Source of the DNA: Kineosporia mesophila
GTDB lineage: Bacteria; Actinomycetota; Actinomycetes; Actinomycetales; Kineosporiaceae
DNA: 64,000 nucleotides
NCBI RefSeq assembly: GCF_021129235.1
Contig: NZ_JAJOMA010000014.1
Span: 1 to 64,000, forward strand
Direction of reading: 5' to 3'
A model generated the notes under the pieces. That model was not told the origin of the DNA, did no database searches, and saw only the letters and a list, made by a program, of their open reading frames with translations. Within the stretch, counting starts at the first letter, position 1. Every line of letters begins with the position of its first letter. Of the stretch, positions 21,437 through 61,458 are shown in pieces. Both the position numbers and the translations under genes were made by a program.

Positions 21437-23144
21437 GGTTCCCGCCCAGTACCCGGGTGAGCACGGCCTCGGCTCCGCCCGTGGGCAGTGCGTCGCCCCG
21501 CCAGGCCACGTGCTGGTCCGGCCGCACCAGGAAGTACAGGGCGTCGCGGTACGGGCTCCCGGCCGGCACGTCCTTCACGTGCACCACCGCGAGGAGAATC
21601 CCCCGCCGGGCCGCCGCCTCGGTGAAAGAGGTTTCCAGGGAACGGTCCTCACCGATCGACAGCAGCGCGAAGCCGGATCCGATCCGGTCGTGCAGGGTGC
21701 CGCCGTAGGTGTCGACGAGACCGTTCGGGGCGCGGTGGCCCGGCCGTGGATCGTCCTCGTAAATTTCTGGCTCCCAAGGTGTCTCGTCCCTCACCGGACT
21801 GGATTCGTACCAGATCGCCCGGGACTGGTCGTACCGCTCGTCGAACGTGACGCCCGGCGCCACCACCGACTCCGCGGCCAATCGGGCCCGGATCTTCTCG
21901 CGGCGCTCGAGCGCCCACCCGCTCGTGTCCTGATCGGCCGGGATGCCCTCGTCCCGCAGCTCGGCCAGGGTCGCGCGCGCACGCCGTGAGCGTTCCAGCG
22001 CGTGGTCGGCAACCCTCCAATTGTGCCGCCGGCGTTCCTCGTCGTAGGAGTCGAGCAACTCCGTCGGCGCCTGGTCCCGCAGGACGGCCGCCAGCTTCCA
22101 GCCGAGATTGACCACGTCACCGAACCCTTCGCCCAGGTTGCCGCCCGGGGTGCGTACGTGGGCGGCATCTCCCACCAGGAGCACCCGGCCCTGCCGGAAC
22201 GTCCGCGCGATCCGGGTCGAGTCGTAGTACGGGGTGGCCGAGACCAGTTCCAGGTCCAGATCGAAACCGAAGGACGCGCGGGCGGTGTCGAGCAGTTCGC
22301 GCTCGGTCGGCCGGTGGTCGAGCGGGAAGGGGCCGGCGTACACGCGCCACTCGCGATGGCTGACCGCCGCCAGGAATCCCGAGGACTTCTCGTTGAACAC
22401 GATGTTCACGCCGCTGGGGGCGGGCCCCACCCGGTCGCTGATGTCGGGGGTGCGCACGATCAGCCGGAAACGCTGTTCCCGGGCCCGTTCCCCGTCGCGT
22501 TCGATGCCGGCCAGGGTGCGGACCGTGCTGCGGTTCCCGTCCGCACCGATGACGTAGCGGGCCCGCACCAGGCGCGCCTCACCGTCGGAGATCACCCGGG
22601 CCTCGACCCCGTCGGCATCCTCCTCCAGGGCGCGCAGTTCCCAGCCGCCGGAGACCGGCACGCGCAGTTCGCCCAGGCGCTCGATGAACACCTTCTGCAG
22701 GGCCGATTGCGGACGCCTCAGGGCTTCTTCGGGGCTGGCCCGCCTTTTCGGGACGGCCGGCCCGGTAGGGCCGAGATCATGCCCCACCAGCGAGGTGATG
22801 AGGCGGATGCCCCGGTTCCACTCCGGGGGGAAGGTCCACTCGTCGCGGATGCGCTGCAACAGACCCCAGCGCCGGAAATGCTCGACCACGCGCGGGGTGT
22901 GGCCCATCGCCCCGGCCCGTACCAGAGTGGCCTCGGTGGCCTTGTCGACCACGGCCACGCTGACACCGCGCCCCGCGAGCTCGATCGCGGCGGAGAGCCC
23001 GACCGGTCCGGCCCCCACGACCAGCACGTCCACGGCATCGGGCAGGGCATCACGCGGGAAGACCACCGTATGGACGTCGCGCCCACCGGTGAGGGAAAGA
23101 TCCGGCCGGTACGCCTCGTCCCTCAATTCTTCGTTCGTGATCAT
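21429..23144 (-). CDS. FAD-dependent aromatic-ring monooxygenase
   Basis: 571 residues of the class A flavoprotein hydroxylase (PheA/TfdB/MhpA-like) type. The dinucleotide fold is VLVVGAGPVGLSAAIELAGRG (about 40-60), and GADGNRS and VLLVGDAAHVRTPGGNLGEGFGDVVNLGWKLA follow. The C-terminal domain resembles the thioredoxin-like domain of phenol hydroxylases. It would hydroxylate an aromatic substrate with NAD(P)H and O2 in the cytoplasm. It is the last gene of the 31.1-21.4 kb operon. Its ATG, first codons and GGGGAGGA ribosome site all lie inside a 48-bp palindrome shared with the end of the preceding monooxygenase gene (ATGA overlap). Confidence 0.85.
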   Translation of the reverse strand: MITNEELRDEAYRPDLSLTGGRDVHTVVFPRDALPDAVDVLVVGAGPVGLSAAIELAGRGVSVAVVDKATEATLVRAGAMGHTPRVVEHFRRWGLLQRIRDEWTFPPEWNRGIRLITSLVGHDLGPTGPAVPKRRASPEEALRRPQSALQKVFIERLGELRVPVSGGWELRALEEDADGVEARVISDGEARLVRARYVIGADGNRSTVRTLAGIERDGERAREQRFRLIVRTPDISDRVGPAPSGVNIVFNEKSSGFLAAVSHREWRVYAGPFPLDHRPTERELLDTARASFGFDLDLELVSATPYYDSTRIARTFRQGRVLLVGDAAHVRTPGGNLGEGFGDVVNLGWKLAAVLRDQAPTELLDSYDEERRRHNWRVADHALERSRRARATLAELRDEGIPADQDTSGWALERREKIRARLAAESVVAPGVTFDERYDQSRAIWYESSPVRDETPWEPEIYEDDPRPGHRAPNGLVDTYGGTLHDRIGSGFALLSIGEDRSLETSFTEAAARRGILLAVVHVKDVPAGSPYRDALYFLVRPDQHVAWRGDALPTGGAEAVLTRVLGGNLR

Positions 23145-23181
23145 GCAAATCCTCCCCGGGGAAAGTCTTCCTGATCACGAA
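23134..23181. repeat. 48-bp junction palindrome, copy A
   Basis: It begins TTCGTGATCA and ends TGATCACGAA around a CCCCGGGG centre. On the minus strand it encodes the last residues of the upstream LLM (RDQEDFPRGGFA), its TGA stop, a GGGGAGGA ribosome site and the ATG plus first codons of the FAD monooxygenase gene. About 80% identical to copy C. Confidence 0.85.
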
Positions 23182-24496
23182 CAGAGTGGCGGTTCTCCGG
23201 GATCGGGAGGCCCAGATGGCCTCGCAGGGTGTCGTGTTCGTAAGCGGTCCGGAACAGACCTCGCTTCTGCAGCAGCGGCACCACGTCACCGGCGAAGCGC
23301 TCCAGATCCTCCAGGGCCCGGAAGCGCAGGTTCAGGCCGTCGGCGGCACCGGCGGTGAACCATTCCTCGATCGCGTCCGCGACGGTGTCCGGCGCCCCGG
23401 TGAACGGTGAGGGCCGGTACTCGGTGAGGGTCTCCACCACCTGCCGCAGGGTGAGGCCCTGCGAGGCCGCGCGGTCGACGATCGCCTGCCCCGCCGTGCG
23501 TCCCCCCTTCTCGGCCAGGTGGGCGACATCCGGGAACGGCGCGTCCAGATCGTGCTGCGCGAAGTCGTACGCCCCGAAACTACGGCCCAGGAAGCCCAAT
23601 TTGCGGTCGAAGTCGTTGTCCTGGTCGTAGATCTCGCGGGACCGGCGATGCGCCTGCGCGTCGCTCGACCCGACCACCGGCGATGCCCCGGTGAAGATCA
23701 ACACGTGGTCGGGGTCGCGCCCGGCCGCGGTGGCCCGCTGCTTGATGTCGCTGAAGTAGGCCTGGGCCTGCGCCCGGGTGCCGCCGGGCGCGTAGATGCC
23801 CTCGGCCACCTGCGCGGCCAGGTTCCGCCCCTCCTCGGAGACCCCGGCCTGGAAGATCACCGGCTGTCCCTGCGGCGAGCGGGAGACGTTCAGCGGCCCG
23901 GCGACCGAGAAGTGCTCGCCGACATGGTTCAGCGCGTGCAGTTTCGAGGGGTCGAGGAACTGGTTGTCGTCCAGGGAGGCGGGGAAGGCGTCGTCCTCGT
24001 AGGAGTCCCACAGCCCGCGCACGACCTGCACGGCCTCCAGGGCCCGCCCGTAGCGGGTGGCGTAGTCGAGGTGCTCCTCCAGGCCGTAGTTGCGCGAGGT
24101 CCCGGTGTCGAAGCTGGTGACCACGTTCCACGCCGCCCGGCCGCCGCTGATCAGGTCGAGCGAGGCGAAGCGCCGGGCCAGGTTGAACGGCGAGTTGTAG
24201 GTCGAGCTCGCCGTGGCGACCAGGCCGATGTGTGTAGTGTGCGTGGCCACCGCCGAGAGGAGGGTCAGCGGTTCGAGGCGGTTCAGGTAGTGCGAGGGGT
24301 AGTCGGGGGTGATGAACTGGCTGTCGACGATGAAAAAGGCGTCGAACAGGGCGGCCTGCGCGATCTGAGCCTGCCGGATGTAGTACTGGATGTCGATGCT
24401 GGCGTTCTTCGGCACCCGCGGGTCTTTCCACAGCCCGTGCTGGCCCGGGCCACCCACCCCGTAGGCGGCGACCGCCAGGTGAAGTCTGCGCGTCAT
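23141..24496 (-). CDS. NtaA/DszA-type flavin monooxygenase (LLM)
   Basis: 451 residues of the luciferase-like monooxygenase (LLM) superfamily, NtaA/SnaA/DszA branch. Signatures are FDAFFIVDSQFITP near the N-terminus, LEPLTLLSAVATHTTHIGLVATAS, GGRAAWNVVTSFD, YGRALEAVQVVRGLWDSYEDDAF and SPQGQPVIFQAGVSEEGRNLAA. The family uses FMNH2 from a separate reductase to oxidise amines, sulfones or thioethers. It overlaps the ATPase gene upstream (ATGA at 24493-24496). The last dozen residues (RDQEDFPRGGFA) come from the junction palindrome and look added to the normal end. It is probably part of uptake-linked catabolism of an organosulfur or amine compound brought in by the adjoining ABC importer. Confidence 0.88.
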   Translation of the reverse strand: MTRRLHLAVAAYGVGGPGQHGLWKDPRVPKNASIDIQYYIRQAQIAQAALFDAFFIVDSQFITPDYPSHYLNRLEPLTLLSAVATHTTHIGLVATASSTYNSPFNLARRFASLDLISGGRAAWNVVTSFDTGTSRNYGLEEHLDYATRYGRALEAVQVVRGLWDSYEDDAFPASLDDNQFLDPSKLHALNHVGEHFSVAGPLNVSRSPQGQPVIFQAGVSEEGRNLAAQVAEGIYAPGGTRAQAQAYFSDIKQRATAAGRDPDHVLIFTGASPVVGSSDAQAHRRSREIYDQDNDFDRKLGFLGRSFGAYDFAQHDLDAPFPDVAHLAEKGGRTAGQAIVDRAASQGLTLRQVVETLTEYRPSPFTGAPDTVADAIEEWFTAGAADGLNLRFRALEDLERFAGDVVPLLQKRGLFRTAYEHDTLRGHLGLPIPENRHSVRDQEDFPRGGFA

Positions 24497-25335
24497 ACCG
24501 GTTCTCCGTTCAGCTGAGCTCGTAGTGCCTGACGTTCGGCCCGGGTGGCGGGCGGCGCGTGCAGCGTGGGCACCGAACCCAGCAGCAGCCGGGTGTAGGC
24601 GTGCTGCGGCGTCCGGAGAACTTCTGCGGTGGAACCGGACTCGACCAGCTCACCCTGGTACAGCACCGCGATCCGGTCGGCGACACCGGCCACCGAGCCG
24701 AGGTCGTGCGAGATGAAGACCAGGGCGGTGCCGGCGTCGCGCAGGTTCTTGATGATCTGCAGGATCTGTACCCGGTTGGCGGCGTCCAGGGCGGACACCG
24801 GCTCGTCGAGGATGATCAGCGCGGGCTCGACGACCAGGGCCCGGGCCACCGCGACCCGCTGCCGCTGGCCGCCCGACAGCTCGGCCGGGCGGCGCGGCAG
24901 CAGGTGCTCGTCGAGGTTCACCCGGGCGAACTGCTCCCGCACCGCTTCGAGGGCGGACGCGCGCGGGTCGCCGCGCAGCAGAAGGGGTTCGAGCAGCGAC
25001 TCCTGAACGGTCAGGTCCGGGTCGAGGCTGCGCAGCGGGTCCTGGAACACGTACTGCACCACGCCGCGCCGGCGGAAGGACCGCCACTGCCGCTGCGAGT
25101 ACCCGGTGACGTCCTCGCCGCCGATCCGGACCCGGCCGCCGGAGGCCCGCACCAGCCCCAGCACCGTGCGGGCCAGCGTGGACTTGCCCGAGCCGGTCTC
25201 CCCGATCAGGCCGAGCGTCTCCCCGGACCGCACCTGGAGCGACACACCGGACAGCGCGCGATGTCGGCGCCGACCCACCCCGTAGTGGACATCGAGGTCG
25301 GAGACCTCGAGCACCTCGTCCTCAATGCCCGGCAC
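24493..25335 (-). CDS. ABC importer ATPase (DppF/OppF-like)
   Basis: 280 residues: Walker A GETGSGKST (about 39-47), signature [15 protein letters not shown], Walker [14 protein letters not shown], and the H-loop FISHDLGSV. The C-terminal extension with HAYTRLLLGSVP is typical of the oligopeptide/nickel importer family. It is the second of two ATPases, with its start overlapping the first by 14 bases, and it powers the importer encoded upstream. Confidence 0.92.
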   Translation of the reverse strand: MPGIEDEVLEVSDLDVHYGVGRRRHRALSGVSLQVRSGETLGLIGETGSGKSTLARTVLGLVRASGGRVRIGGEDVTGYSQRQWRSFRRRGVVQYVFQDPLRSLDPDLTVQESLLEPLLLRGDPRASALEAVREQFARVNLDEHLLPRRPAELSGGQRQRVAVARALVVEPALIILDEPVSALDAANRVQILQIIKNLRDAGTALVFISHDLGSVAGVADRIAVLYQGELVESGSTAEVLRTPQHAYTRLLLGSVPTLHAPPATRAERQALRAQLNGEPV

Positions 25336-26161
25336 CGGCAGTCTCCTTCAGGTCGGGTCGGTCGAGATAACGTTCCAGCCCGTACTGCTCGTGCTCGGTG
25401 ATCAGGAGCCGGGTGTACTCGTGCTGCGGGTCGTGCAGCACCGAGGCGGTCGGGCCCTGTTCGACCACCACCCCGTCGCGCATCACCAGCACCTGCTCGC
25501 AGAGCTGGGCGACCACGGCCAGGTCGTGCGACACCACCACCAGGGCCAGGCCGGTGCTCTCCCGCAGATCCGTGAGCAGATCGAGGATCTCGGCCTGCAC
25601 GGTGACGTCCAGGGCCGTGGTCGCCTCGTCCGCGATCAGGATCTTCGGGCGCAGCGAGATGGCCGCCGCGATGAGCACCCGCTGCTGCATACCCCCGGAC
25701 AGCTCGTGCGGGTACCGGTCGTAGACCCGGTGCGGGTCCCTCAGGTGTACCTCGGCGAGCAGTTCCAGGGCCCGCTGCCGGGCCGCCCGGCGGCCCAGAC
25801 CGGCCTTGACCCGAAGGGCCTCGGCGATCTGCGAGCCCACGGTGAGCGAGGGGTTCAGGTACGAGGCCGGGTCCTGGAACACCGCGCCGATCGTCGAGCC
25901 CCGCAGGCCGGTCCACTGTCGCGCGGTGAGGCCGGAGATGTCCTGCCCGTCGATCGCGATCGAGCCGTGCGACAGCCGTAGCCCCGGTGGCAGGATGCCC
26001 AGCGCCGACCGGCAGGTGAGCGTCTTGCCGCTGCCCGACTCCCCGACGATCCCGACCACCCCACCGGGCTCCAGGTCGAACGAGACCCCGTGCACGAGTT
26101 CCCTCGATCCGTGGGCAATCCGGACGTCCTGAAGCGCGAGCACCTTCTTCTCCGCGGTCAT
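25322..26161 (-). CDS. ABC importer ATPase (DppD/OppD-like)
   Basis: 279 residues: Walker A GESGSGKTL, signature LSGGMQQRVLIAAAI, Walker B ILIADEATTALD, H-loop VVVSHDLAVV, and the C-terminal HEYTRLLI stretch of OppD-type proteins. The ATG at 26161 overlaps the permease stop as ATGA within palindrome copy C, whose CCCCGGGGCGG sequence lies at the ribosome-site position. Acts at the cytoplasmic face with the two permeases encoded upstream. Confidence 0.92.
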   Translation of the reverse strand: MTAEKKVLALQDVRIAHGSRELVHGVSFDLEPGGVVGIVGESGSGKTLTCRSALGILPPGLRLSHGSIAIDGQDISGLTARQWTGLRGSTIGAVFQDPASYLNPSLTVGSQIAEALRVKAGLGRRAARQRALELLAEVHLRDPHRVYDRYPHELSGGMQQRVLIAAAISLRPKILIADEATTALDVTVQAEILDLLTDLRESTGLALVVVSHDLAVVAQLCEQVLVMRDGVVVEQGPTASVLHDPQHEYTRLLITEHEQYGLERYLDRPDLKETAGAGH

Positions 26162-26198
26162 GCAAGACCGCCCCGGGGAGGTTCTGCCTGATCAAGAA
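26151..26198. repeat. 48-bp junction palindrome, copy C (diverged)
   Basis: A diverged copy with the CCCCGGGG centre and TGATCAAGAA end. On the minus strand it encodes the permease tail (LDQAEPPRGGLA), the TGA stop, and the ATG of the ATPase gene, exactly the layout of copy A. About 35 of 44 aligned bases match copy A. Confidence 0.7.
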
Positions 26199-27036
26199 CG
26201 GTTCTGGGGTCGGTCACGGACTTCACCTCTCGTACGGTCTGGACGTCCCGCAGGGCGTCGGCCAGCAGGTTGCAGCCCGACACCGTGCCCATGATCAGCA
26301 GGGCCGGCACCGCGGGCGCCCACGGCTGGTAGTCCAGGTAGCCCAGGTCCGAGGCCAGCAGACCGCCCCAGGTCGGGGCCGGGGGCTGCACCCCGACGCC
26401 GAGGAAGGTCAGGCTGGACACCACCACGAATCCGATGCCGATCGTCTGGGCCAGGGCGACGCCGATCGCCGGCAGCACCTTGGCCCAGACGTGACGGCGC
26501 ACGATCTGGCCGAACGAGGCGCCGGAGATCAGCGCGGCCTCGACGTACTGCGACCGGGCCACGGCCAGCGTCGCGGCCCGCGAGACCCGGAAGAACAACG
26601 GCGACACCAGCACCCCGACCACGAACATCGCCTGGGTGATGCCGTTCCCGAGGAGGGCGGTGACGGCCACGGCGAAGACCAGGAACGGCAGGGAGATCAG
26701 CGTGTCGGTCAGGCGCAGCACGCTCCACTCGAAGACCCGGCCGAGGTAGACCGAGGCAATGCCCGGGACGGCGCCGGCGAACAGCGCCACCAGCGCCACC
26801 TCGAGCGACCCGACGATGCTCGTGCGGGATCCGTCGAGCAGGCGGCTGAGCACGTCGCGGCCCAGGTAGTCGGTGCCCAGCCAGTGTCCCCCGGAGGGCC
26901 CGGCCAGGGTGGTGGTGCTGCCCGCGAGCGGGTCGTGCGGGGCCAGCAGCGGCCCGAACACGGCCAGGACCGCGACCAGCGCCAGGATGGCGAACGCGAC
27001 CTTCCCGGTGGGGAGGGCCCAGATCCGGCGGGTCAT
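26158..27036 (-). CDS. ABC importer permease (DppC/OppC-like)
   Basis: 292 residues with about six transmembrane helices. An N-terminal helix is followed by the periplasmic segment GPSGGHWLGTDYLGRDVLSRLLDG typical of DppC/OppC. The EAA-type loop is EAALISGASFGQIVRRHVWAKVLPAI. It starts with an ATG one base after the DppB-like permease. Its C-terminal tail comes from palindrome copy C, as in the LLM gene at 23.1 kb. It forms the translocation channel with its partner. Confidence 0.9.
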   Translation of the reverse strand: MTRRIWALPTGKVAFAILALVAVLAVFGPLLAPHDPLAGSTTTLAGPSGGHWLGTDYLGRDVLSRLLDGSRTSIVGSLEVALVALFAGAVPGIASVYLGRVFEWSVLRLTDTLISLPFLVFAVAVTALLGNGITQAMFVVGVLVSPLFFRVSRAATLAVARSQYVEAALISGASFGQIVRRHVWAKVLPAIGVALAQTIGIGFVVVSSLTFLGVGVQPPAPTWGGLLASDLGYLDYQPWAPAVPALLIMGTVSGCNLLADALRDVQTVREVKSVTDPRTVLDQAEPPRGGLA

Positions 27037-27037
27037 G

Positions 27038-28066: not shown

Positions 28067-28069
28067 CCC

Positions 28070-29605
28070 CTAGGAGATCTTCACGCCGGTCCAGTTGATG
28101 TGCCCCGGATTGGCCGGCAGACCCGAGATCGAGGGGTCCTTGGCGTAGACGCTGGGCTGGGAGTAGGTGAAGACCAGCGCCTCGCTGACCAGGCCGGCCC
28201 GGGTGGCGGCCTGCAGGTTCGCCTCGTAGTCACCGTCTTCCAGCGGGGTCTGGCGCACCTTCGCCACCGCCTTCTCGAAACCGTCCGGCTCGTAGGGGGT
28301 ACTGAGGTTCAGCGGGCCGTTCGGGCCGAAGTGCGCGGTGAGGGTCTGCAACGGTGAGTCGCGGCCGGTCGTGCCGTACAGCGAGGCGACGAGGTCCTTG
28401 GCGAAGAACGGGGTGGCCCAGTTCTTGTCGATCTTGATGTTGACCGTGATGCCGATCGCCGCCAGCTGCGACTGCACCACCTCGGCCGCGGGGTCCTCGG
28501 CCGGGATCACCAGGTCGATCGTCAGGTCGTCACCGGAGTACTTCGACTCGGCCAGAGCGGCTTTGGCCTTCGCCACGTCATGCGGCCAGAGGTCGGCCGA
28601 CTGCGGGTCGTAGGCGATGTACTCCTTCGGGAACGGCTGGGTGGCGACCGTGCCGTAGCCGAAGGTCAGCTTGTCCACGAACTCCTGCCGGTCGATGCCG
28701 TACCGCACGGCCTCGACCACCTTCGGGTCGTCGAACGGCTTCTTGTTGACGTTCAGGCTGAGGTTCGAGGCGTTGTAGCCGGGCTGCACGAACACGTCGA
28801 GCCCGGCCTTCTCGGCGGCCTGCGCCTGCGCCGCGGCCACGTCGGCGAAGTTGTACACCCCGGTCTGCAGACCCGAGACCACGGTGGAGGCGTCGGGGGC
28901 GGAGACCAGTTCGACCTTGTCGATGTGGATGTTCGCGGCGTCCCAGTAGTCCGGGTTCTTCTCCAGCACGGCCTTGGTGCCCGGGATGAGCTGCGTGATC
29001 ACGAAGGGCCCGTGCCCGACCGGCTTCTGGTCGAGCGCCTTCGGGTCGGCGGCAGCTTGTGGGCTGGCCACCTGGAGCACGCGCTCACCGAACAGCAGCG
29101 GGATCTGGTAGTCCACCTGGGTCAGGTCCACGACCACGTCCAGGTCACCGTCGGCCGTGACCTTGTCGATCGAGGTGAGGTCACCGAAAAGGGCCGAGTC
29201 CTCCTGGGTCTTGGCCCGCTCGACGGCCTTCTTCACGGCGTCCGCGTTCACCGGGGTGCCGTCGCTGAACGTCAGGCCCTCGCGCAGGTGGAACGTGACC
29301 TGATCGCCCTTGTCGTTGTAGTCCCAGCTCTCGGCCAGGTCGGGCACCGCCTCGCCCTTCTCGTTCACCCGGGTCACCGAGGCGTAGACCAGTGACAGGT
29401 GCCGGAACTGGGCACCGCTGCCGCCCACCACCGGGTCCCAGTGGGTCGGGAAGAAGGACGACGCCCATTTCAGGGTGGCGGCGCCGGCCGCGGCGCTGGA
29501 TCCGCCGTCACCGCAGGCCGCGAGTACCGCCCCGAGCGCGGGAACGGCGAGCAGGCCGCCGAGGAAGGACCGCCGGCCGAGGCCGGGCGAGGAGTCAAGG
29601 GTCAT
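28070..29605 (-). CDS. ABC importer solute-binding lipoprotein (SBP_bac_5)
   Basis: 511 residues. The N-terminus has a twin-arginine signal (RRSFLGGLLAVPALGAVLAAC) ending in a lipobox Cys at about 31, so it is probably Tat-exported and lipid-anchored. The body is a family 5 (dipeptide/oligopeptide/nickel) binding protein: VPDLAESWDYNDKGDQVTFHLREGLTFSDGTPV, VEAVRYGIDRQEFVDKL. The four following genes encode the matching importer. Between two NtaA-type monooxygenases, the likely cargo is an organosulfur or amino compound rather than a peptide, an inference from context. Confidence 0.9.
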   Translation of the reverse strand: MTLDSSPGLGRRSFLGGLLAVPALGAVLAACGDGGSSAAAGAATLKWASSFFPTHWDPVVGGSGAQFRHLSLVYASVTRVNEKGEAVPDLAESWDYNDKGDQVTFHLREGLTFSDGTPVNADAVKKAVERAKTQEDSALFGDLTSIDKVTADGDLDVVVDLTQVDYQIPLLFGERVLQVASPQAAADPKALDQKPVGHGPFVITQLIPGTKAVLEKNPDYWDAANIHIDKVELVSAPDASTVVSGLQTGVYNFADVAAAQAQAAEKAGLDVFVQPGYNASNLSLNVNKKPFDDPKVVEAVRYGIDRQEFVDKLTFGYGTVATQPFPKEYIAYDPQSADLWPHDVAKAKAALAESKYSGDDLTIDLVIPAEDPAAEVVQSQLAAIGITVNIKIDKNWATPFFAKDLVASLYGTTGRDSPLQTLTAHFGPNGPLNLSTPYEPDGFEKAVAKVRQTPLEDGDYEANLQAATRAGLVSEALVFTYSQPSVYAKDPSISGLPANPGHINWTGVKIS

Positions 29606-29637
29606 GGGAGGGCTTTCCTTCGCTGATCTCTCTTTCG

Positions 29638-29685
29638 TTCGTGATCAGGCAAAGTCTCCCCGGGGAAACTTTGCCTGATCACGAA
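29638..29685. repeat. 48-bp junction palindrome, copy B (near perfect)
   Basis: Perfect 18-bp arms (TTCGTGATCAGGCAAAGT and its complement) around a CTCCCCGGGGAA centre. A single non-complementary pair separates the arms from the TCCCCGGGGA core. It lies in the gap between the LLM gene at 29.75 kb and the start of the binding-protein gene, so it would form a strong hairpin in the mRNA. Read on the minus strand it still spells an RDQAKFPRGDFA-stop tail like that of copy A. Confidence 0.92.
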
Positions 29686-29751: not shown

Positions 29752-31119
29752 TCAGGGGACGAGGGACGCGGCTTTCGCTTCTTCGGGACGGGCCGCGGTG
29801 TAACGGTTCTCCGGCACGGGCAGACCGAGGTTGCCGCGCAAGGTGGTCGATTCGTAGTCGCTGCGCACGACGCCGCGCTCGCGCAGGATGGGCAGCACCT
29901 GGTCGGTGAAGCGGGCGAAGTCGCCGGGGGCGTTGACGGTGATGTTGACGCCGTCGAAACCCCCGGCCTCGAACCAGCGCTGGATCTCGTCGGCCACGGT
30001 GAGCGGCGACCCGACGAACGGCGAGCGCCCGGCGTCGAGCTGGTGCTGCACGACCTGCCGCAGGGTCCAGCCCTTCTCGATGGCCAGGCGGGTGATGCCC
30101 TCGGCCTGGGTGCGGAAGCTCAGGGCGCCGGCCGCGGCGACCGAGGGGAACGGGGCGTCCAGGTCGTACTGGCTGAAGTCGTGCCAGCCGAAGGGCCTTC
30201 CGAGTTCGGCGAGCGCCTTCTCGAAGCTCCTGGCGCCCAGGGCCGCGTCCTGCCGGGCCCGGGCCTCCTCGTCGGTTTCGGCGATGATCGGGTGAATCCC
30301 CGGAACGATCAGCACGTTCTGCGGGTCACGGCCCTTGGCCGCGGCGCGCTCGCGCAGTTCGGTGCGGAACGCGACGGCCTGCTCGAGGGTCTGGGCGTGG
30401 GTGAAGATCGCGTCGGCGATCGCGGCACCCAGGTCGCGGCCCTCCTCGGAGTCACCGGCCTGGAAGATCACCGGCTGCCCCTGCGGCGTGCGCTCCAGGT
30501 TGAGCGGGCCGACGACCCGGAAGTGCTCGCCGGTGTGGTGCAGAGCATGGAGTTTCGTGGGGTCGAGGAACTCCCGGCGCTCGCGGTCGCGGGGCAGGGC
30601 GTCGGCCTCGTACGAGTCCCACAGGCCCTGCGCGACCCGGACGTGCTCCAGGGCCCGGCCGTAGCGGGTGGCGTAGTCGAAGTGCGCGTCGCGGCTGTAG
30701 TTCCCGGCCGTTCCGGCGTCTCCGCTGGTGACCACGTTCCAGCCGGCCCGCCCGCCGCTGATGTGGTCCAGCGACGCCAGCCGCCGGGCCACGTTGAACG
30801 GCTCGTTGTACGAGGTGGTGAGCGTGCCGACCAGGCCGATGTGCTCGGTGTGCACGGCGATGGCCGACAGCAGGGTGAGCGGTTCCAGGCGGCTGAGGTA
30901 GTGGTTCGGGGAGTCGGGGGTGATGAACTGGCTGTCGACGATGAAGACGTGGTCGAACTTCGCCGCCTCGGCCTCCTGGGCCCGGGCGATGTACCAGCGC
31001 ACGTCCACGCTGGCGTCGGTGGGGATCTGCGGGTCCAGCCAGGTGTGATGCTGGCCCGGTCCACCGACGCCGAGCAGGACGGCGCCGAGTTTGAGGGTGC
31101 GACGGGGTGATTCGGGCAT
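29752..31119 (-). CDS. NtaA/DszA-type flavin monooxygenase (LLM)
   Basis: 455 residues, close paralogue of the LLM at 23.1 kb and first gene of the operon running to 21.4 kb. Signatures: FDHVFIVDSQFITPDSPNHYLSRLEPLTLL, GGRAGWNVVTSGD, GRALEHVRVAQGLWDSYE, TPQGQPVIFQAGDSEEGRDLGA. Uses free FMNH2, so a flavin reductase elsewhere is needed. It is divergent to the LysR gene with a LysR-type operator between them, which suggests induction by a sulfur-metabolism effector. A palindrome separates it from the binding-protein gene. Confidence 0.88.
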   Translation of the reverse strand: MPESPRRTLKLGAVLLGVGGPGQHHTWLDPQIPTDASVDVRWYIARAQEAEAAKFDHVFIVDSQFITPDSPNHYLSRLEPLTLLSAIAVHTEHIGLVGTLTTSYNEPFNVARRLASLDHISGGRAGWNVVTSGDAGTAGNYSRDAHFDYATRYGRALEHVRVAQGLWDSYEADALPRDRERREFLDPTKLHALHHTGEHFRVVGPLNLERTPQGQPVIFQAGDSEEGRDLGAAIADAIFTHAQTLEQAVAFRTELRERAAAKGRDPQNVLIVPGIHPIIAETDEEARARQDAALGARSFEKALAELGRPFGWHDFSQYDLDAPFPSVAAAGALSFRTQAEGITRLAIEKGWTLRQVVQHQLDAGRSPFVGSPLTVADEIQRWFEAGGFDGVNITVNAPGDFARFTDQVLPILRERGVVRSDYESTTLRGNLGLPVPENRYTAARPEEAKAASLVP

Positions 31120-32234: not shown

Positions 32235-32756
32235 ATGCCCGCCATCCACCTGACCCCCGACGAGCACGGCGACGAGCCGGTCCGCACCCCCAGCGGCGTG
32301 CTGCTGCCGCCCGGCATCGACCCGTTCCACACCCGCCTGCACCAGATCGCCCCCGCGAGCCTGGTCGGGCAGACCACGCAGACCTCCGGCATGAAGCGAC
32401 TGGAGGCCGTGAGCGGCAAGACCGTGGGTGCCCAGCACCTGTGGATGGGCCAGACCCACGTGCCCGCCCTGACCAACTCCGGCAATCACCACCACGGGGC
32501 CTCCGAGACCGCCATCTACGTGGTCGCGGGGCACCCGGTGTTCGTGTTCGCCGACCTGGACGGCGACGAGCCGGTCGAGCGGCGTATCGAGACCTCGCCC
32601 GGCGACTACGTGTTCGTGCCCCCGTGGGTCCCCCACCGCGAGGAGAACCCCGACCCCGACGACGAGGCCCTGGTGGTCATAGCCCGCACCACCCAGGAGG
32701 CCGTCGTGGTCAACCTCGGCCAGCTCGACTGGTCCGAGGTGAACACGAGTTCGTAG
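32235..32756 (+). CDS. Cupin-domain protein
   Basis: 173 residues. A single cupin barrel with the metal-binding pattern NHHHGASETAIYVVAGHP (motif 1: His, His and Glu) and GDYVFVPPWVPHREENP (motif 2: His). Enzymes and regulators of this shape bind Fe, Mn or Ni; related small cupins include dioxygenases and acireductone-type or sulfur-metabolism proteins. It starts one base after the lysR stop, so it is co-expressed with the regulator. No precise function can be given. Confidence 0.8.
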   Translation: MPAIHLTPDEHGDEPVRTPSGVLLPPGIDPFHTRLHQIAPASLVGQTTQTSGMKRLEAVSGKTVGAQHLWMGQTHVPALTNSGNHHHGASETAIYVVAGHPVFVFADLDGDEPVERRIETSPGDYVFVPPWVPHREENPDPDDEALVVIARTTQEAVVVNLGQLDWSEVNTSS

Positions 32757-32757: not shown

Positions 32758-32823
32758 CACCGGGGAATGTCTGCCGGATCACGAACGAGGCGGTGCTTCC
32801 TCCGTGATCCGGCCAAGTTTCCC
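32758..32823. repeat. Junction palindrome, copy E (halves inverted)
   Basis: The second half of the element (CCGGGGAATGTCTGCCGGATCACGAA in outline) is followed by a first-half-like stretch (CGTGATCCGGCCAAGTTTCCC in outline). The 11-bp arms GCCGGATCACG (32773-32783) and CGTGATCCGGC (32803-32813) pair perfectly. Located between the cupin stop and the deleted glycosyltransferase gene, it may act as a terminator, though it has no T-run. Confidence 0.65.
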
Positions 32824-53994: not shown

Positions 53995-54088
53995 GGCCGG
54001 GCCTGCGGAGGGAGGGCGCGCGAGTAACGGGTCACGGCGAAATCCTTCGTCAGCAAAAGAATGTGGCGGAAAGAGTGTGAAGATTTCG

Positions 54089-54160: not shown

Positions 54161-54186
54161 TCTTAGCTCTCAGGCAAACGGAAAGT

Positions 54187-54258
54187 TCAACAACAGGTAC
54201 TGGAAACCCTCTGCAGGTCTACCCAGCGCGCGCTCGCCAGCAGCGGGCCTCGATTCAT
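54187..54258 (-). CDS. Cys-Cys attenuator leader peptide, 23 aa
   Basis: A 23-codon frame encoding a peptide that ends ARWVDLQRVSSTCC-stop, the same DLxRVxxxxC pattern as the leader at 41.9 kb but with two adjacent Cys codons before the stop. The ATG at 54258 follows the -10 box by seven bases, so the mRNA is probably leaderless. It precedes the hairpin and the four-LLM operon (53.99-49.79 kb). It looks like a cysteine-responsive attenuator. Confidence 0.8.
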   Translation of the reverse strand: MNRGPLLASARWVDLQRVSSTCC

Positions 54259-54265
54259 GAGCACA

Positions 54266-54294
54266 AGTGTCCAAGTCGTGACCAGCATTGTCAA
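54266..54294 (-). promoter_or_regulatory. Promoter of leader peptide and LLM operon
   Basis: TTGACA (54289-54294), 17-base spacer, GACACT (54266-54271); the leader ATG is seven bases further, so transcription may begin at its A. The -35 box overlaps that of the divergent ssuD promoter. Confidence 0.65.
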
Positions 54295-54316
54295 TCATTC
54301 CTGTCGAGAATATAGG
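54288..54316 (+). promoter_or_regulatory. Promoter of ssuD
   Basis: TTGTCA (54288-54293), 17-base spacer, TATAGG (54311-54316), about 30 bases before the ssuD start. The spacer carries the shared motif ATCATTCCTGTCGAGAAT found again at 59634-59651 with one change. Confidence 0.6.
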
Positions 54317-54345
54317 CTGAGGGCCATCGCTGATCGGAGACATCG

Positions 54346-56911: not shown

Positions 56912-57822
56912 GAGACCGGGACCGCCAGGAAGTTGTTGCTGTAGGACCGTTCCCAGCCACCGGCCGACGGGAGCACTCCGTAGTCGGCGAGCCACTGCGC
57001 GTACGGCTGCATCAGCTCGTCGCGGACCTGACCCCAGCGTCCCTCGTGGAACCAGGTCGGGGTGATGAGATCCAGCGAGCGCCGCAGGATCTCGCGGGAG
57101 AAGTAGGGCACATACCGCTCGAAGGCGTCCGCGGCCAGGTCCGGTTCGTCGCGGGCGGCCCGGTAGCCGCGCTCGACGATCTCCAGCAGGGTGCGCACCA
57201 GCACCGGGTTGCGCTCGATCGTCGATTCCTGGGTGCCCAGGAGGTAGCTGTGGTACGGCGGGGCGCCGAGGGTGTCGACCGGCCAGACCACGCGGTCGGA
57301 CTCGGGCAGGTTGCCCAGCAGCGCGTCCCAGGCCCAGTAGTTGCCGAAGGTGGCGTCGACCTCGCCGGCCGCCACGTCGTCCGCCAGCAGTTCGCGGGTG
57401 CCGCTGTTCACCACCTGCACCCGGGAGAAGTCGCCGCCGTCGGCGGCGATCAGGTGCCTGACCATGGCCAGGCCCCGGGGTGTGGGGTTGAGGGCCAGGC
57501 GACGGCCCTCCAGGTCACGGGGGCGGGTGATACCGGTGGCGGTGGTGGTGAGGATGGTCTCCATCGCCCGGTGGTTGATGGCCGCGACCGCCTGCAGCGG
57601 TTCGTGGCGGGCCCGGCGCACGAGCAGCCGGTTGCTCGGGAAGACCGCGAAATCGGCCTCGAACCGGGAGAGGTAGGCCAGGGAGTCGCCCCGCGAGGGG
57701 TCGGCCACGGTCAGTTCGACATCCAGCCCGGCCTCGGCGAACCAGCCCTGCCGGCTGGCCACGAAGAATCCGGCCGAGTTGGTCCACGGGTGCAGGTATT
57801 CCAGGACGACGCGCACGCTCAT
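56908..57822 (-). CDS. NMT1/THI5-like protein without signal peptide
   Basis: 304 residues of the NMT1/THI5/SsuA fold: LEYLHPWTNSAGFFVASRQGWFAEAGLDVELTVADPS, RFEADFAVFPSNRLLVRR, DLEGRRLALNPTPRGLAMVRHLIAADGGDF and WERSYSNNFLA. There is no signal peptide or lipobox, and no cysteine in the entire sequence. Lacking both, it is probably not a secreted binding protein, a DszB-type desulfinase or a THI5 enzyme with catalytic cysteines. It lies between a genuine lipoprotein SBP and the permease. It may bind the same ligand inside the cell, or it may be exported by an unrecognised route. Confidence 0.8.
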   Translation of the reverse strand: MSVRVVLEYLHPWTNSAGFFVASRQGWFAEAGLDVELTVADPSRGDSLAYLSRFEADFAVFPSNRLLVRRARHEPLQAVAAINHRAMETILTTTATGITRPRDLEGRRLALNPTPRGLAMVRHLIAADGGDFSRVQVVNSGTRELLADDVAAGEVDATFGNYWAWDALLGNLPESDRVVWPVDTLGAPPYHSYLLGTQESTIERNPVLVRTLLEIVERGYRAARDEPDLAADAFERYVPYFSREILRRSLDLITPTWFHEGRWGQVRDELMQPYAQWLADYGVLPSAGGWERSYSNNFLAVPVS

Positions 57823-57826
57823 GTCG

Positions 57827-58888
57827 TCAGCTCCCCGAGGCGGTGAGGTAGGCGTTGGTGTAGTACTGCGTCCAGTCCGGCTCGGCCGTCAGCTTCTTGC
57901 CGTCCGCGTCGGTGAGGAGCCCGTTCTCGTAGAGGAACGAGCCGTAATTCTTCCAGAACGTCTCGTCCTGCACGCCGACGTGGCCTTCCTCGGTGTTCAG
58001 GTAGCCGTCGCCGGCCAGGAGCTTCTGGCTCGCGCGCACCAGGTCGGCGTCTTTCAGCTGCGTCGGGTTCGCCTGCACCAGCAGGTCGGCGGCCTTCTCC
58101 GGCTCGGCGGCGGAGTAGCTGTAGCCCTTCGCCGTGGCCGCCAGGAACTTCCTGGCCACGTCGGAGTTGGCCTTGAGGTACTTGTCGCTGGAGGCCAGCA
58201 GCACCGAGTACTGGTCGGGGAAGCCGTAATCGGTGGGGGCGAAGTTCTTCAGCGGCTTGCCCGAGCGCTCGGCCTCCACGCCCTCCCAGGTCACGACCGG
58301 GATGGTGAAGTCGGCCTTCTTGCTGTAGACCGCCTGGTACGCAGAGGTGTCCAGCGCGATGCTCCTGAAATCACCCTCGCCGCCGTCGTGCTGGATCACG
58401 TACTTCAGCAGCGGGCCCTCGTCCGGCGACCCGAACCCGGCGTAGGTCTTGCCGTCCAGGTCTTTCGGGCTCTGGATGTCGTCGCGGTCGGCGCTCACCG
58501 AGATCGCGTACGTGCCTTTCCTGTCGGGCGCGTACACGGCCACGACGTCCTGCCCGGCGGCCCGGGCGTAGGTCACGCCGGCCTGGTAGGAGAACCCGAA
58601 GTCGGCCTTGTCGTGCGCGACCAGCGTCTCCGGCGAGGTGGAGGAGTACGGGATCACCTTGAGGCTGATGCCCGCGTCCTTGTAGTAGCCGAGCTCGTCG
58701 GCCGCGAAGACGCCGGTGTAGTCGGTGTTCGGGGTCCAGCTCAGGGCCACGGTGACCTCGGTCAGATCACCGGAGGCCGCTTCCGTCCCGGACGAGGAGC
58801 CACCGCAGGCGGACGCCGCGAGCACGGTGGCGGAGAGGGTGGCGGCCAGCAGGCCACGGCGGGTGAGCGATGCAGATCGGTTCATCAC
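57827..58888 (-). CDS. ThiY/NMT1-type solute-binding lipoprotein
   Basis: 353 residues. Twin-arginine-like lipoprotein signal LTRRGLLAATLSATVLAASACGGSS. Body similar to ThiY: VALSWTPNTDYTGVFAADELGYYKDAGISLKVIPYSS, ADFGFSYQAGVTYARAAGQDVVAVYAP, DLDGKTYAGFGSPDEGPLLKYVI. This resembles binding proteins for thiamine pyrimidine precursors more than SsuA. It is the lipid-anchored receptor of the operon's importer. Confidence 0.88.
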   Translation of the reverse strand: MMNRSASLTRRGLLAATLSATVLAASACGGSSSGTEAASGDLTEVTVALSWTPNTDYTGVFAADELGYYKDAGISLKVIPYSSTSPETLVAHDKADFGFSYQAGVTYARAAGQDVVAVYAPDRKGTYAISVSADRDDIQSPKDLDGKTYAGFGSPDEGPLLKYVIQHDGGEGDFRSIALDTSAYQAVYSKKADFTIPVVTWEGVEAERSGKPLKNFAPTDYGFPDQYSVLLASSDKYLKANSDVARKFLAATAKGYSYSAAEPEKAADLLVQANPTQLKDADLVRASQKLLAGDGYLNTEEGHVGVQDETFWKNYGSFLYENGLLTDADGKKLTAEPDWTQYYTNAYLTASGS

Positions 58889-58945
58889 GGTATCCGTTAC
58901 GGGGTCGGGGTCATGGTCGAGCAGAGGACGAGGTGGTCAGGCTGG

Positions 58946-59542
58946 TCAGGTCACGATCAGGTGCGGGGGTTCGGGGTCGTTGTGCACGACGACATCGGCC
59001 CGGCCGGGGGTGTTCTCGCGGCGCAGGAGGGTCTCCTCCTGGCGAGCCCAGTCGGCGAAGTGATGCTGCCGGTAGCTGTCCCAGTCGGACCGGCTCCGCA
59101 GGCGTTCCCGCCGGGTGTCGTCGTCGGACTCCACCCAGATCAGCAGACTCAGACAGCCGGTGAGCGGCTCACTGCCGGAACCGCAACCCTCCAGCACCAC
59201 GACGGGAGAGGCGGGCACCTCCCGCCAGGCCTCGCGGGTGCCGGTGGCCCAGTCGTAGGGACGCCAGCGGGCGGTGCGGCCCTGCTCCAGGGGCTCGGCG
59301 ATCCATCCGTGCAGCAGCTCCCCGACACCGGCCAGACCCTGCCAGCCCTCGTAGAGGTCGTCGAGGTGGATCAGCGGGGCCCCCAGCCGTGCGGCCAGGT
59401 GCCGGGCGAGCGTGGTCTTGCCCGAGCCGGAGCGGCCGTCGACCGCGACGAGGCGGGTGGCTCCCACCGACGGAGGCCGCCGGAGCACGTGCCCCGCCAA
59501 CTCCTCGACCACCATGGGGGCGGTGCCGGTGCCTCGGTTCAC
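58946..59542 (-). CDS. P-loop kinase, uridine-kinase-like
   Basis: 198 residues from a GTG at 59542 with AGAAGG upstream. Walker A VDGRSGSGKTTLARHLA near the N-terminus, PLIHLDDLYEGW (the DDxY stretch of nucleoside kinase-like proteins), a VVVLEGCGSG strand, and an RRERLRSRSDWDSY LID-like segment. It phosphorylates an unknown small molecule in the cytoplasm. As first gene of the ThiY-like importer operon it may trap the imported compound. The 58889-58945 gap holds only the SBP ribosome site. Confidence 0.75.
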   Translation of the reverse strand: MNRGTGTAPMVVEELAGHVLRRPPSVGATRLVAVDGRSGSGKTTLARHLAARLGAPLIHLDDLYEGWQGLAGVGELLHGWIAEPLEQGRTARWRPYDWATGTREAWREVPASPVVVLEGCGSGSEPLTGCLSLLIWVESDDDTRRERLRSRSDWDSYRQHHFADWARQEETLLRRENTPGRADVVVHNDPEPPHLIVT

Positions 59543-59626
59543 GGTGCTGCCTTCTGTCTGCTGTCGAATCTTCTGTCGAATCGCTGTGACCTGCTGAGAC
59601 CCCTGGGAGTAAGGGCTCTGCGCTGA

Positions 59627-59656
59627 ATACTGGATCAGTCCTGTCGAGAATGTCAA
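59627..59656 (-). promoter_or_regulatory. Promoter of kinase-importer operon with shared motif
   Basis: TTGACA (59651-59656), 18-base spacer, CAGTAT (59627-59632), reading toward the kinase gene. The spacer holds ATCAGTCCTGTCGAGAAT on the plus strand, 17 of 18 bases equal to the ssuD promoter spacer. Confidence 0.55.
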
Positions 59657-59663
59657 CAAGTTC

Positions 59664-59689
59664 GCATGCCCATGTATACACAGGTATGC
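59664..59689. promoter_or_regulatory. GntR operator candidate
   Basis: Near-dyad GCATGCC and GGTATGC around CATGTATACACA, which itself contains TGTATACA. The ATG of gntR (59686) lies inside it, suggesting autoregulation and control of the divergent kinase-importer operon. Confidence 0.55.
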
Positions 59690-60393
59690 TCGCGCTCGTC
59701 CTCACGCTGATCATCCGCCGGGAGAACCCCTTGTCCCCACGCCCAGGCAGTACCGAGACCCCCACGACGGGCCCGGGCACCCTCTACGAGATCGTGCGGT
59801 CCGACATCCTGGCCGGTGAGTTCGGCGCCACCGCACTGTTGCAGGAACTACCGCTGGCCGAGCGATACGGCGTCTCCCGCACCCCCGTGCGCGAGGCCCT
59901 GGCCCGCCTGGAGCACGAGGGCCTGGTCGAGAAGGCCGGGCGCGGGCACCGGGTGCGTTCGGGCACCGCCGAAGACGTGCTCGAGGTCTACGAGGCGCGC
60001 ATCGTGCTGGAGGGTCAGGCCGCCGCCGGCGCCGCCGAACGCCGCGGCGAACTGGATCTGGCCCGGCTGCGGCACCTGCACGAGACCGTCCTGACCGGGG
60101 AGACCCGTAACGACGCCGAGCGCAGCGCCCACTCGGCCTGGCACGCGACCATCTGGCGGGCCTCGCACAACCGCACGATCGAGACCCTGCTGCACCGGCT
60201 CACCGCCCAGCTGCGCATCTACGACCGCGGCACCCAGGAGACCCCCCACGACCTGGAACAGACCCGCGCCGAGCACGAGAGCATCCTGGCTGCCATCACC
60301 GACCGCCACCCGGAAGCCGCGCGCGGCGCGATGATCGATCACCTGACCCGGGCCCGCGAGGTCCGCCTGCACCGGTTCGGGAGCGAGGCGTGA
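59686..60393 (+). CDS. GntR-family regulator (FCD type)
   Basis: 235 residues from the ATG at 59686. A TTG at 59731 with GGGAG seven bases upstream would give a more usual 220-residue protein and is a serious alternative. Winged helix: TLYEIVRSDILAGEFGATALLQELPLAERYGVSRTPVREALARLEHEGLV. FCD ligand domain with HSAWHATIWRASHNRTIETLL. Divergent to the kinase-SBP operon and overlapping the following LLM gene, so it probably regulates both. Confidence 0.85.
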   Translation: MLALVLTLIIRRENPLSPRPGSTETPTTGPGTLYEIVRSDILAGEFGATALLQELPLAERYGVSRTPVREALARLEHEGLVEKAGRGHRVRSGTAEDVLEVYEARIVLEGQAAAGAAERRGELDLARLRHLHETVLTGETRNDAERSAHSAWHATIWRASHNRTIETLLHRLTAQLRIYDRGTQETPHDLEQTRAEHESILAAITDRHPEAARGAMIDHLTRAREVRLHRFGSEA

Positions 60394-61436
60394 CCACCAC
60401 CGGACTGGTGCTCCCGGTACGCCACCGGCCGGTCAGCTACGGGTACGACGCGATCCTGCGCCTGGCCGAGTACGCCGACGCCCACGACGGCTGGGACACA
60501 CTGTGGGTCGCCGACTCGATCATGGCCCTGCCCTTCCTCGACTCCGGGGTGCTGCTGGCCGCGCTCGCCGCCCGCACCCGCCGCGCGCGGCTCGGGATCG
60601 GCTGCATGGCCTCGCTGGGTTTCCGGCACCCGGTCACGGTGGCCCGGCAGTGGGCCGACCTGGACGCGCTGTCCGGCGGCCGGATGCTGCTGGCCGCCTG
60701 CCCGGGCAACGGCACCGGCACCGCGGTCGAGAACGAGCTGCGCACGTTCGGCCTGGACTACCGCGAGAAGGTCGCCCGGTTCGAGGAGGCCGTAGCTTTC
60801 CTGCGGGAGGTCAGCACCGGTGCGACCTCGTTCCAGGGGCCCTTCACCCAGGTCGAGAACCTCGACCTGGGTGAAGGTTTCGTGCAGCGACCACTCCCGG
60901 TCTGGGTCGCGGCCAACCCCTCGCCGCGCGCCGGGCAGGCCACGGTCGACCGCCTGCTGGGCCGGGTGGCCCGTCTCGGCGACGGCTGGATGACCTTCAA
61001 CGTGACTCCCTCCCAACTGCGCACGCGCGTGGACCGTCTGTACGAACTGCGCGCCCAGGTGCGTCCCGAAGAGACCGGGCCGCTCGAGGTCTGCGTCTTC
61101 CTCAACACCAATGTCGGGCTCGATCCCGCCACGGTGCTTGAGGACGCGCGCGAGCGCTGGTTCCAGACCGCACCTCGCGGGGTGTCGGTGGAAGACCTGG
61201 ACGGCATCGCGGCCATCGGCTCGCCCGAGCAGGCGGCCGACCTGATCGGCCGCCTCTCCGAGGCCGGCGCCACCCACCTGGCCATCGAGCCGCTGAGCAC
61301 CGACGTCCCCGCCCAGGTCGAAGCCCTCACCGAGCTGTTACTCCCCCGCCTGCCCCGGGGAATGTCTGCAGGATCACGACCGGATGGCGCGGTCGCGCCC
61401 CCACCCCCTCGCCACCCCGCCCACCTACGTCCGTGA
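60390..61436 (+). CDS. LLM-class oxidoreductase
   Basis: 348 residues, GTG overlapping the gntR stop. LLM core: GWDTLWVADSIMALPFLDSGVLLAALAARTRRARLGIGCMASLGFRHPVTVARQWADLDALSGGRMLLAACPGNG, and LPVWVAANPSPRAG. The FMN or F420 preference cannot be told from sequence. The last 30 or so residues (PRGMSAGSRPDGAVAPPP and on) come from palindrome-element sequence plus a Pro-rich stretch and look added to the natural end at LLLPRL. Stop overlaps the rhodanese GTG. Confidence 0.85.
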   Translation: MTTTGLVLPVRHRPVSYGYDAILRLAEYADAHDGWDTLWVADSIMALPFLDSGVLLAALAARTRRARLGIGCMASLGFRHPVTVARQWADLDALSGGRMLLAACPGNGTGTAVENELRTFGLDYREKVARFEEAVAFLREVSTGATSFQGPFTQVENLDLGEGFVQRPLPVWVAANPSPRAGQATVDRLLGRVARLGDGWMTFNVTPSQLRTRVDRLYELRAQVRPEETGPLEVCVFLNTNVGLDPATVLEDARERWFQTAPRGVSVEDLDGIAAIGSPEQAADLIGRLSEAGATHLAIEPLSTDVPAQVEALTELLLPRLPRGMSAGSRPDGAVAPPPPRHPAHLRP

Positions 61437-61458
61437 TCATGCCCACCTTCCCCGAAAG
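61353..61458. repeat. Junction palindrome, copy F (split halves)
   Basis: Second half CCCCGGGGAATGTCTGCAGG...ATCACGA (61353-61379) and first half CCGTGATCATGCCC...CCCCGAAAG (61431-61458) separated by 51 bases. The first half contains the LLM stop (TGA) overlapping the rhodanese GTG, as in copies A and C. Confidence 0.6.

Follow-up and report, generated by a model that had tools for sequence, protein, structure and literature searches.

Dispersed palindromes at gene ends in Kineosporia mesophila and a nuclease-like gene flanked by their units

The DNA analysed here, referred to as the window, comprises the first 64,000 nucleotides of contig NZ_JAJOMA010000014.1 (C6) of Kineosporia mesophila, whose genome (G000) amounts to 7.78 Mb in 61 contigs. 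Between positions 23134 and 61458 the window carries five copies, named A, C, B, E and F, of a short palindromic element in an island with monooxygenase and transporter genes. These palindromes are a family of short dispersed repeats like the repetitive extragenic palindromic (REP) sequences, mostly at gene ends. Units of the family also flank a nuclease-like gene in several actinobacterial families, an association that hints at repeats spreading themselves by a system of a new kind.

Five palindromes in a monooxygenase island

Element A (23134..23181) is a 48-bp palindrome at the junction of two minus-strand genes, one for a luciferase-like monooxygenase (23141..24496; PF00296 match to residue 384 of 451) and one for a flavin adenine dinucleotide (FAD)-dependent monooxygenase (21429..23144; PF01494). 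It encodes the last 12 residues of the former, with the tail RDQEDFPRGGFA up to the stop, and the ATG and first residues of the latter (MITNEEL), stop and start overlapping as ATGA, and it supplies a G-rich ribosome site besides. Element C (26151..26198), a decayed 48-bp palindrome, lies at the junction of the genes for an ATP-binding cassette (ABC) transporter permease (26158..27036, minus strand; PF00528 match to residue 265 of 292), whose tail LDQAEPPRGGLA and stop it contains, and for an ABC transporter ATPase (25322..26161, minus strand; PF00005), which starts inside it as MTAEKKV, again through an ATGA overlap. Element B (29638..29685) is a near-perfect 48-bp palindrome between the minus-strand genes 28070-29605 and 29752-31119. 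The halves stand in the opposite order in the remaining two: E (32758..32823) follows directly 3' of the stop of a plus-strand cupin gene (32235-32756), its neighbouring genes being called as convergent, and F (61353..61458) encodes the final residues and the stop of a luciferase-like monooxygenase (60390..61436, plus strand; PF00296 match to residue 296 of 348), the stop being the TGA of CGTGATC. None of the five is assigned a strand.

Scored against the 29-bp reference half-site GTTCGTGATCAGGCAAAGTTTCCCCGGGG, the two halves match at 29 and 28 positions in B, 26 and 25 in A, 24 and 19 in C, 24 and 21 in E, and 23 and 20 in F. Since the best non-member in the window (position 28978) also scores 19 of 29, the score by itself does not set the weaker half of C apart from background; element C is backed, however, by a perfect 44-bp palindrome at the same place in the genome G005. 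This scoring recovered all five copies that the original prediction had placed here, including the reversed order of E and F, and its reading of A and C as encoding a protein tail, the TGA, a ribosome site and the next ATG was likewise borne out. Read in one frame, the element stays open to its far ATGA, with GGGGAGG preceding the ATG, and the tails it encodes fall beyond the Pfam domains of the upstream proteins. The predicted hairpin is strongest in B (-45.5 kcal/mol, z -10.5), weaker in A (-25.6 kcal/mol, z -4.0) and decayed in C (z -0.1). In A the fold buries the ribosome site and the start, which fits coupling by ribosome passage. An Rfam scan of the five loci returned 14 matches, to miRNA families and one snoRNA, all under the gathering scores.

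The island is syntenic in G005 (92% identity) and in four relatives of the same genus, G001-G004 (about 79-88%), so that the junctions can be compared with and without the element. Element A is common to G005 and absent in G001, G002 and G003, the left flank not being found in G004. At junction C the palindrome of G005 encodes the tail LRDHAKPPRGGFA, the stop and the start MITDKK, and none of G001-G004 has a palindrome there. The same operon junctions exist in element-free relatives, a comparison that the original prediction had proposed. Wherever both genes were called in these relatives (A in G001-G003, C in G001-G004) they overlap by 4 bp, so the ancestral junctions were probably stop/start overlaps already, at which the element put its own ATGA. 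The upstream proteins of the relatives end, and the downstream proteins begin, differently from those of K. mesophila at both junctions. We read A and C, from these alignments, as probable insertions shared with G005. Had all relatives shown the same tails by common descent in genomes with no other copies, the prediction would have been contradicted; descent accounts for A and C in G005 alone, G001-G004 are without them (G004 at C only), and copies number in the hundreds.

The remaining elements have partial counterparts. In place of B, G005 retains only the remnant TGATCACGAACGAG, which fits a deletion between TGATC repeats and is consistent with loss of B from that genome. One half only of E, and one half only of F, is found in G005; at F, homology to G003 and G002 breaks at 61351 and 61352, respectively, and resumes at 61481. 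The wider comparison took in 40 G000 elements, the G005 stretch being available for 14 of them and unavailable for 26. Nine of the 14 were scored as shared and five as absent, and these five are heterogeneous: the element at 345960 is in fact shared, B has its remnant, 330327 is unaligned, 315164 faces a longer G005 stretch, and 316647 is a clear absence. In the reverse direction, 12 of 14 G005 elements were shared with G000 and two absent, one of them unaligned. Orthologous elements of the two genomes often keep their place and core and differ in their arms (C1:282274, 311545 and 269947).

These data suggest why a palindrome could be tolerated at two operon overlaps: one of its frames runs without a stop to a final ATGA and includes a G-rich ribosome site, and a ribosome that reaches the end of the upstream gene would unfold the hairpin and begin again at the ATG overlapping the stop.

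A REP-like repeat family across the genome

The idea that no copies lie outside 21-62 kb holds within the window and fails for the genome, where the half-site pattern with at most 3 mismatches matches 247 + 271 = 518 times (reversed control, 0). We surveyed 1.38 Mb of it (C1 as far as 800 kb, C2, the initial 120 kb of each of C5 and C10, and the window) with a rule that demands a C-rich arm or partner and therefore misses degenerate copies such as C. The survey gave 76 elements, of which 4 (A, B, E and F) belong to the window and 72 lie outside it. With copies found throughout the genome, the suggestion that they form an operator family specific to this regulon was not upheld.

The end of the unit, CGTGATCATGCA, hardly varies, whereas the inner arm next to it changes from genus to genus. 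Two units face inward as a palindrome of about 44-83 bp or, like those of E and F, outward. Alignment of the half-sites from 46 inward pairs shows a near-invariant CGTGATCAKGC, a variable arm and a C-run. The commonest arm, CAAAACCTC, occurs in 30 of 92 halves, followed by CAGAACCTC, CGAACCTTC, CAAACCTTC, CAATCCCCC and others. Leaving aside the two halves split by the nuclease gene described below, the arms pair at 0.84 of the inner positions, compared with 0.67 for shuffled partners (maximum 0.72 of 2000; 46 pairs), and outside the dominant subfamily at 0.78 versus 0.59 (maximum 0.68 of 5000; 33 pairs). Outside the core, the sequence flanking the 46 inward pairs is G-poor and pairs no better than chance. 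Longer G000 copies nest one or two AGTTCTAGAACT palindromes centrally; at C1:139823-139905 two of them occupy the loop, with a short spacer that varies between the copies seen. The first 100,000 positions of C1 also show over-represented 11-mers such as GAAGGCTCGAA (10 copies), pointing to another local repeat.

Placement relative to genes is strongly uneven. Seventy-four G000 elements lie outside called genes, 29 in convergent, 41 in tandem and 4 in divergent gaps, where uniform placement would give 14.7, 52.4 and 32.9% (p 2e-7 for convergent, 1e-8 for divergent). A called stop overlaps the element or lies within 41 bp of it in 26 of the 41 tandem and 27 of the 29 convergent cases. The same bias is seen in other named actinobacteria, in which 91 strict palindromes from 80 loci comprise 27 convergent, 45 tandem and 2 divergent cases, 2 inside genes and 15 at locus edges, against 65 convergent, 177 tandem and 97 divergent gaps of at least 60 bp in those loci (p 4e-4 and 7e-9). 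In contrast to the hairpins seen in other genera, the Planotetraspora copies have conserved 12-bp ends around a mostly non-complementary interior, and most of them stand more than 100 bp away from either neighbouring gene.

The spans of the 76 elements, among which C is not counted, contain 12 called stops, some of them at the ends of cluster spans and so beside rather than in a palindrome, and only 3 called starts (A and the genes at C5:57061 and C10:46419). Coupling junctions are therefore a minority outcome, and we regard them as rare by-products of insertion. The proposal that a REP- or MITE-like element (MITE, miniature inverted-repeat transposable element) has become a translational-coupling module thus appears to hold for A and C, as judged against the relatives, and does not hold for the family generally.

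With more than 100 copies of a short palindrome, placed mostly between genes and on their 3' side, the family conforms to REP sequences, and its terminal inverted repeats are those of a MITE; the outer end of the half-site consensus, CGTGATCATGC, is not the GTAG/CGTC tag of REPs.

The family is patchy in its distribution. Core 12-mers number 412 in G000 and 437 in G005, compared with 2, 12, 13 and 6 in G001, G002, G003 and G004, so that the family was either expanded in the G000/G005 lineage or kept only there, gain being the simpler reading; G007, from another genus of the same family (Kineosporiaceae), has 142. The reversed core gave no match in 22 of 23 genomes and one in G108. Strict palindromes occur in 7 of 394 genomes of the class (G000 included), from 6 genera with differing arms, and a looser pattern finds at least 83 stretches, including Planotetraspora, Actinomadura, Bailinhaonella and others. 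The exact dominant half-site had no match in GTDB contigs, a collection from which near relatives are possibly left out, and the strict pattern had none in viral contigs. The sample of G003 contains a convergent-gap hairpin with arms CAGGCCTGATCAC/GTGATCAGGCCTG, like the outward-order form.

A nuclease-like gene between repeat units

The REP-associated tyrosine transposase (RAYT) that the original prediction had looked to as partner is missing from nearly all of the element-bearing genomes that were searched. No Y1 transposase (PF01797) was found in G000, G005, G013, G016, G034, G108, G127 or the four genomes behind the named loci, and one is present in G174, i.e., in 1 of the 12 element-bearing genomes searched, G007 not being among them. 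The core-poor G004 also has one.

A different candidate is found at C1:144962-146086 of G000 (L152), where a 347-residue open reading frame (ORF) stands between the two halves of a complete element, as it does at the same locus in G005. Within G000 this ORF matches only itself at E 0.001, and the profile described below adds one weak relative (46 bits). We picked four stretches of about 1 kb between inverted cores from among the matches listed. Two of them encode this protein as well, with 45% (G034) and 46% (G016) identity to the G000 copy; the other two, also in G016 and G034 (L337 and L338), contain genes that we take to be asd-like and NERD-like. That the ORF is a mere passenger of one element was rejected, given the same gene between repeats in other genera.

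In the protein an AbiEi-like N-terminal part is joined to a C-terminal part that is PD-(D/E)XK-like. All three copies are recognised by AbiEi models of PADLOC (best E 1e-17), and the G000 copy scores 28.4 bits with PF13338 (cut-off 25), a family that the G016 and G034 copies do not match. The nuclease-like part conserves the motifs YRLDLG and EYDG, which we presume to be active-site-like.

A profile built from these three seed copies (G000, G034 and G016) scores 178 bits or more in 11 of 13 core-bearing genomes (G034, G016, G000, G005, G013, G127, G423, G422, G421, G420 and G174) and at most 75.4 bits in 10 of 10 core-poor genomes. Without the three seed genomes, 8 of 10 core-rich versus 0 of 10 core-poor genomes have it (Fisher p 0.0004, uncorrected for kinship). 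Phage and plasmid collections yielded only weaker relatives (1 and 5 records).

Repeat units flank the nuclease gene on both sides in 9 of the 10 core-bearing genomes examined, and on one side in G421. As seeds found by their flanks do not test the association, the more telling set consists of seven loci chosen by profile score and fetched, with about 400 bp on each side, without knowledge of the flanks; six of these are two-sided (G005, G013, G127, G420, G422 and G423). The arrangement varies in detail: G127 has four units to the left and three inverted ones to the right, G420 has two exact and further one-off units to the left and five inverted ones, about 53 bp apart, to the right, and the left units of G013 read GGTGATCATGC. 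Five relatives of the nuclease (in G113, G085, G041, G276 and G338) came from genomes in which the strict palindrome was not found; of these, G113 (CGCTGATCATGCA, 26 bp exact) and G085 (TTGATCATGCA, 21 bp exact) have inverted repeats with variant cores, compared with at most 13 bp in shuffles. Imperfect units are readable by eye at the nuclease flanks of G041 and G276. As a control, we took the 277 called genes of 600-1500 bp in an 800-kb part of G000, of which 1 is flanked on both sides by cores in this order. Two distant relatives, one from G003 (49 bits) and one from Nonomuraea (39% identity), have no flanking inverted repeats.

Possible mechanism, alternatives and known systems

We put at roughly two in three the probability that the palindromes form a REP system whose partner is the AbiEi-like/PD-(D/E)XK-like nuclease, present as one high-scoring gene per genome and responsible for mobilising the repeats. 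In such a system the AbiEi-like region would bind the conserved paired ends, the nuclease region may cut at these ends, and repair could then copy units to new sites, as has been proposed for RAYT and REP. A more specific version, to which we give even odds, is an undescribed REP class over several actinobacterial families, in which the AbiEi-like/nuclease fusion would recognise the CGTGATCATGCA ends and disperse the palindromes by cutting and repair, with arms or core specific to each clade, and the palindrome would serve as an operon-safe cassette of stop, ribosome site and start that keeps up downstream translation. The matches listed in the open-access literature include no description of such a repeat-nuclease pairing.

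A number of observations weigh against a nuclease-driven repeat system. The class sample shows nuclease relatives at E 1e-40 or below, with 5 candidates per genome scored, in no fewer than 48 of 394 genomes, compared with the strict palindrome in 7 of 394, so the protein family is wider than the repeat; two core-bearing genomes are exceptions in the other direction, G108 (22 cores) reaching 107 bits and G007 (142 cores) 76 bits at best. The cut between core-rich (at least 22 cores) and core-poor genomes (at most 13) was chosen after the counts were known, and G174, G108 and G007 stood outside the flank survey. Three of its nine two-sided cases (G000, G034 and G016) had been noticed by their flanks, and the G005 locus is shared with G000 by descent. 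The frame is less tidy in G422 and G423, where units of both orders occur on both sides, and the full element of G421 lies on one side only, within 436 bp. Exact inverted matches at the flanks of G041, G276 and G338 span 12, 11 and 14 bp, for shuffle maxima of 13, 14 and 12, so that only G338 exceeds its shuffles. As to the protein, all three PF18741 scores (26.5, 18.8 and 21.1 bits) fall below the cut-off of 38.2, and no solved structure matched the nuclease meaningfully. As to the repeats, the paired arms could equally come from recent copying of whole palindromes, and sense-strand mismatches in tandem copies are without G-U bias (20 G-U versus 21 A-C), on which ground selection at the RNA level was rejected. 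The clearest presence/absence site has a 3-bp CGC repeat, compatible with insertion with duplication or with deletion between repeats, and gene positions rest on a simple caller made for this analysis.

Among the alternatives, it is possible, though rather unlikely, that the nuclease gene has, in the repeats next to it, operators of its own, the protein being a regulator or defence protein and the dispersed copies having been spread by another enzyme or by gene conversion. AbiEi, which the N-terminal part of the nuclease resembles, does bind inverted repeats at its own promoter, according to the excerpts available of PMC3985639. However, units lie both downstream of the stop and upstream of the start of the nuclease gene, as in a transposon, and the dispersed copies are near 3' ends rather than promoters. 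With clearly lower probability, the elements could be bidirectional terminators or mRNA 3'-end hairpins multiplied by gene conversion, an explanation that overlaps with the repeat-nuclease system in that termination may be a secondary role. The strong bias to convergent and post-stop positions, the paired arms and the strong hairpins of A, B, E and F would all fit it. On the other hand, the sequence outside each half is pyrimidine-rich, with positions -8 to -1 G-poor and mostly C, T or A, so that no U-run follows the hairpin as it would in an intrinsic terminator; in 100-kb samples of G001-G004 other hairpins occupy the convergent gaps shown, and a core of this kind is not over-represented; the mismatches are without G-U bias; and a terminator would have no need of the fixed 12-bp end shared across families.

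Marginally less probable again is a MITE that derives from an ordinary transposon, the autonomous copy being lost or unseen, as the terminal inverted ends, patchy presence and variable interior might indicate. Its difficulties are that a Y1 transposase, the one transposase family searched for, is present in 1 of 12 genomes (G174), that the interiors differ by genus while the ends stay constant, and that no consistent target duplication was seen.

It is highly improbable that a host regulator such as ArgR binds the core and that the palindromes dispersed over the genome serve the host as regulatory sites, although one observation favouring it also counts against the nuclease as partner. In Table 1 of PMC5839063, as far as the excerpt extends, the core 11-mer GTGATCATGCA is contained in the 20-bp ARG box CTCTCCGTGATCATGCACCC near SCO5864 (11.8 bits), on a Streptomyces coelicolor fragment bound by ArgR in a band-shift assay. 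Judged by title, none of the other listed open-access papers that contain this 11-mer deals with repeats of actinobacteria. That box is, however, one of 44 very different boxes under a 9.9-bit model in the same excerpt (PMC5839063), G000 copies avoid divergent gaps, and same-genus relatives have 2-13 cores compared with more than 400. That the copies are operators shared by a regulon for sulfur or monooxygenase genes, an idea prompted by the presence of five of them in a single island of monooxygenase and transporter genes, has practically no likelihood left and was ruled out by the genome-wide distribution, since 72 of 76 elements lie outside the window, 4 of 74 are in divergent gaps, and G001-G004 have the island without A and C.

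If the nuclease is indeed the partner of the palindromes, a second enzyme class, unrelated to RAYT and bracketed by its own repeats, becomes a testable candidate mobiliser for such families, which would give the actinobacterial AbiEi/DUF559-like proteins, so far annotated unknowns, a place in a repeat system. Elements A and C, with empty sites in relatives, illustrate how a palindrome can remodel protein ends and seize the stop/start junction of an operon.

The family can be compared with several described systems. The AbiEi antitoxin of type IV toxin-antitoxin systems shares sequence similarity with the nuclease and is a winged-helix protein binding inverted repeats (PMC3985639, in excerpt); the nuclease differs in its extra nuclease-like region and in having repeat units on both sides of its gene. 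DUF559/REase_MTES_1575 proteins resemble the C-terminal part, below curated cut-offs, and their two distant members in Nonomuraea and G003 differ by lacking the flanking repeats. Mycobacterial interspersed repetitive units (MIRUs) are direct repeats. They are comparable in inserting at start codons and keeping a -4 translational coupling, as described in an excerpt of PMC12548453, and such insertion at a stop/start overlap with the -4 overlap kept is seen, by sequence, at A and C only. MIRUs differ in carrying their own ORF coupled to the downstream gene, according to the same excerpt (PMC12548453); no such ORF is found inside the repeat here, the upstream gene reads into the palindrome instead, and use of a junction is a rare outcome. 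The Rickettsia palindromic elements (RPEs) also become in-frame coding sequence (PMC10969869, from the portion available), although they insert into ORFs, whereas A, C and F form gene ends, and A and C also starts. The family would function in the manner of REP and RAYT without belonging to that type. As here, in REP/RAYT systems and REPtrons, following excerpts of PMC2817692 and PMC3733652, short high-copy palindromes are oppositely paired, occupy mainly convergent and co-directional gaps, and enclose the partner gene between two inverted units. Here the family carries the CGTGATCATGCA end instead of the GTAG/CGTC tag (PMC3733652, as excerpted), Y1/HUH transposases are lacking in 11 of the 12 genomes searched, and the position between two inverted units is occupied, in 9 of 10 genomes, by a different protein, the AbiEi-like/PD-(D/E)XK-like nuclease.

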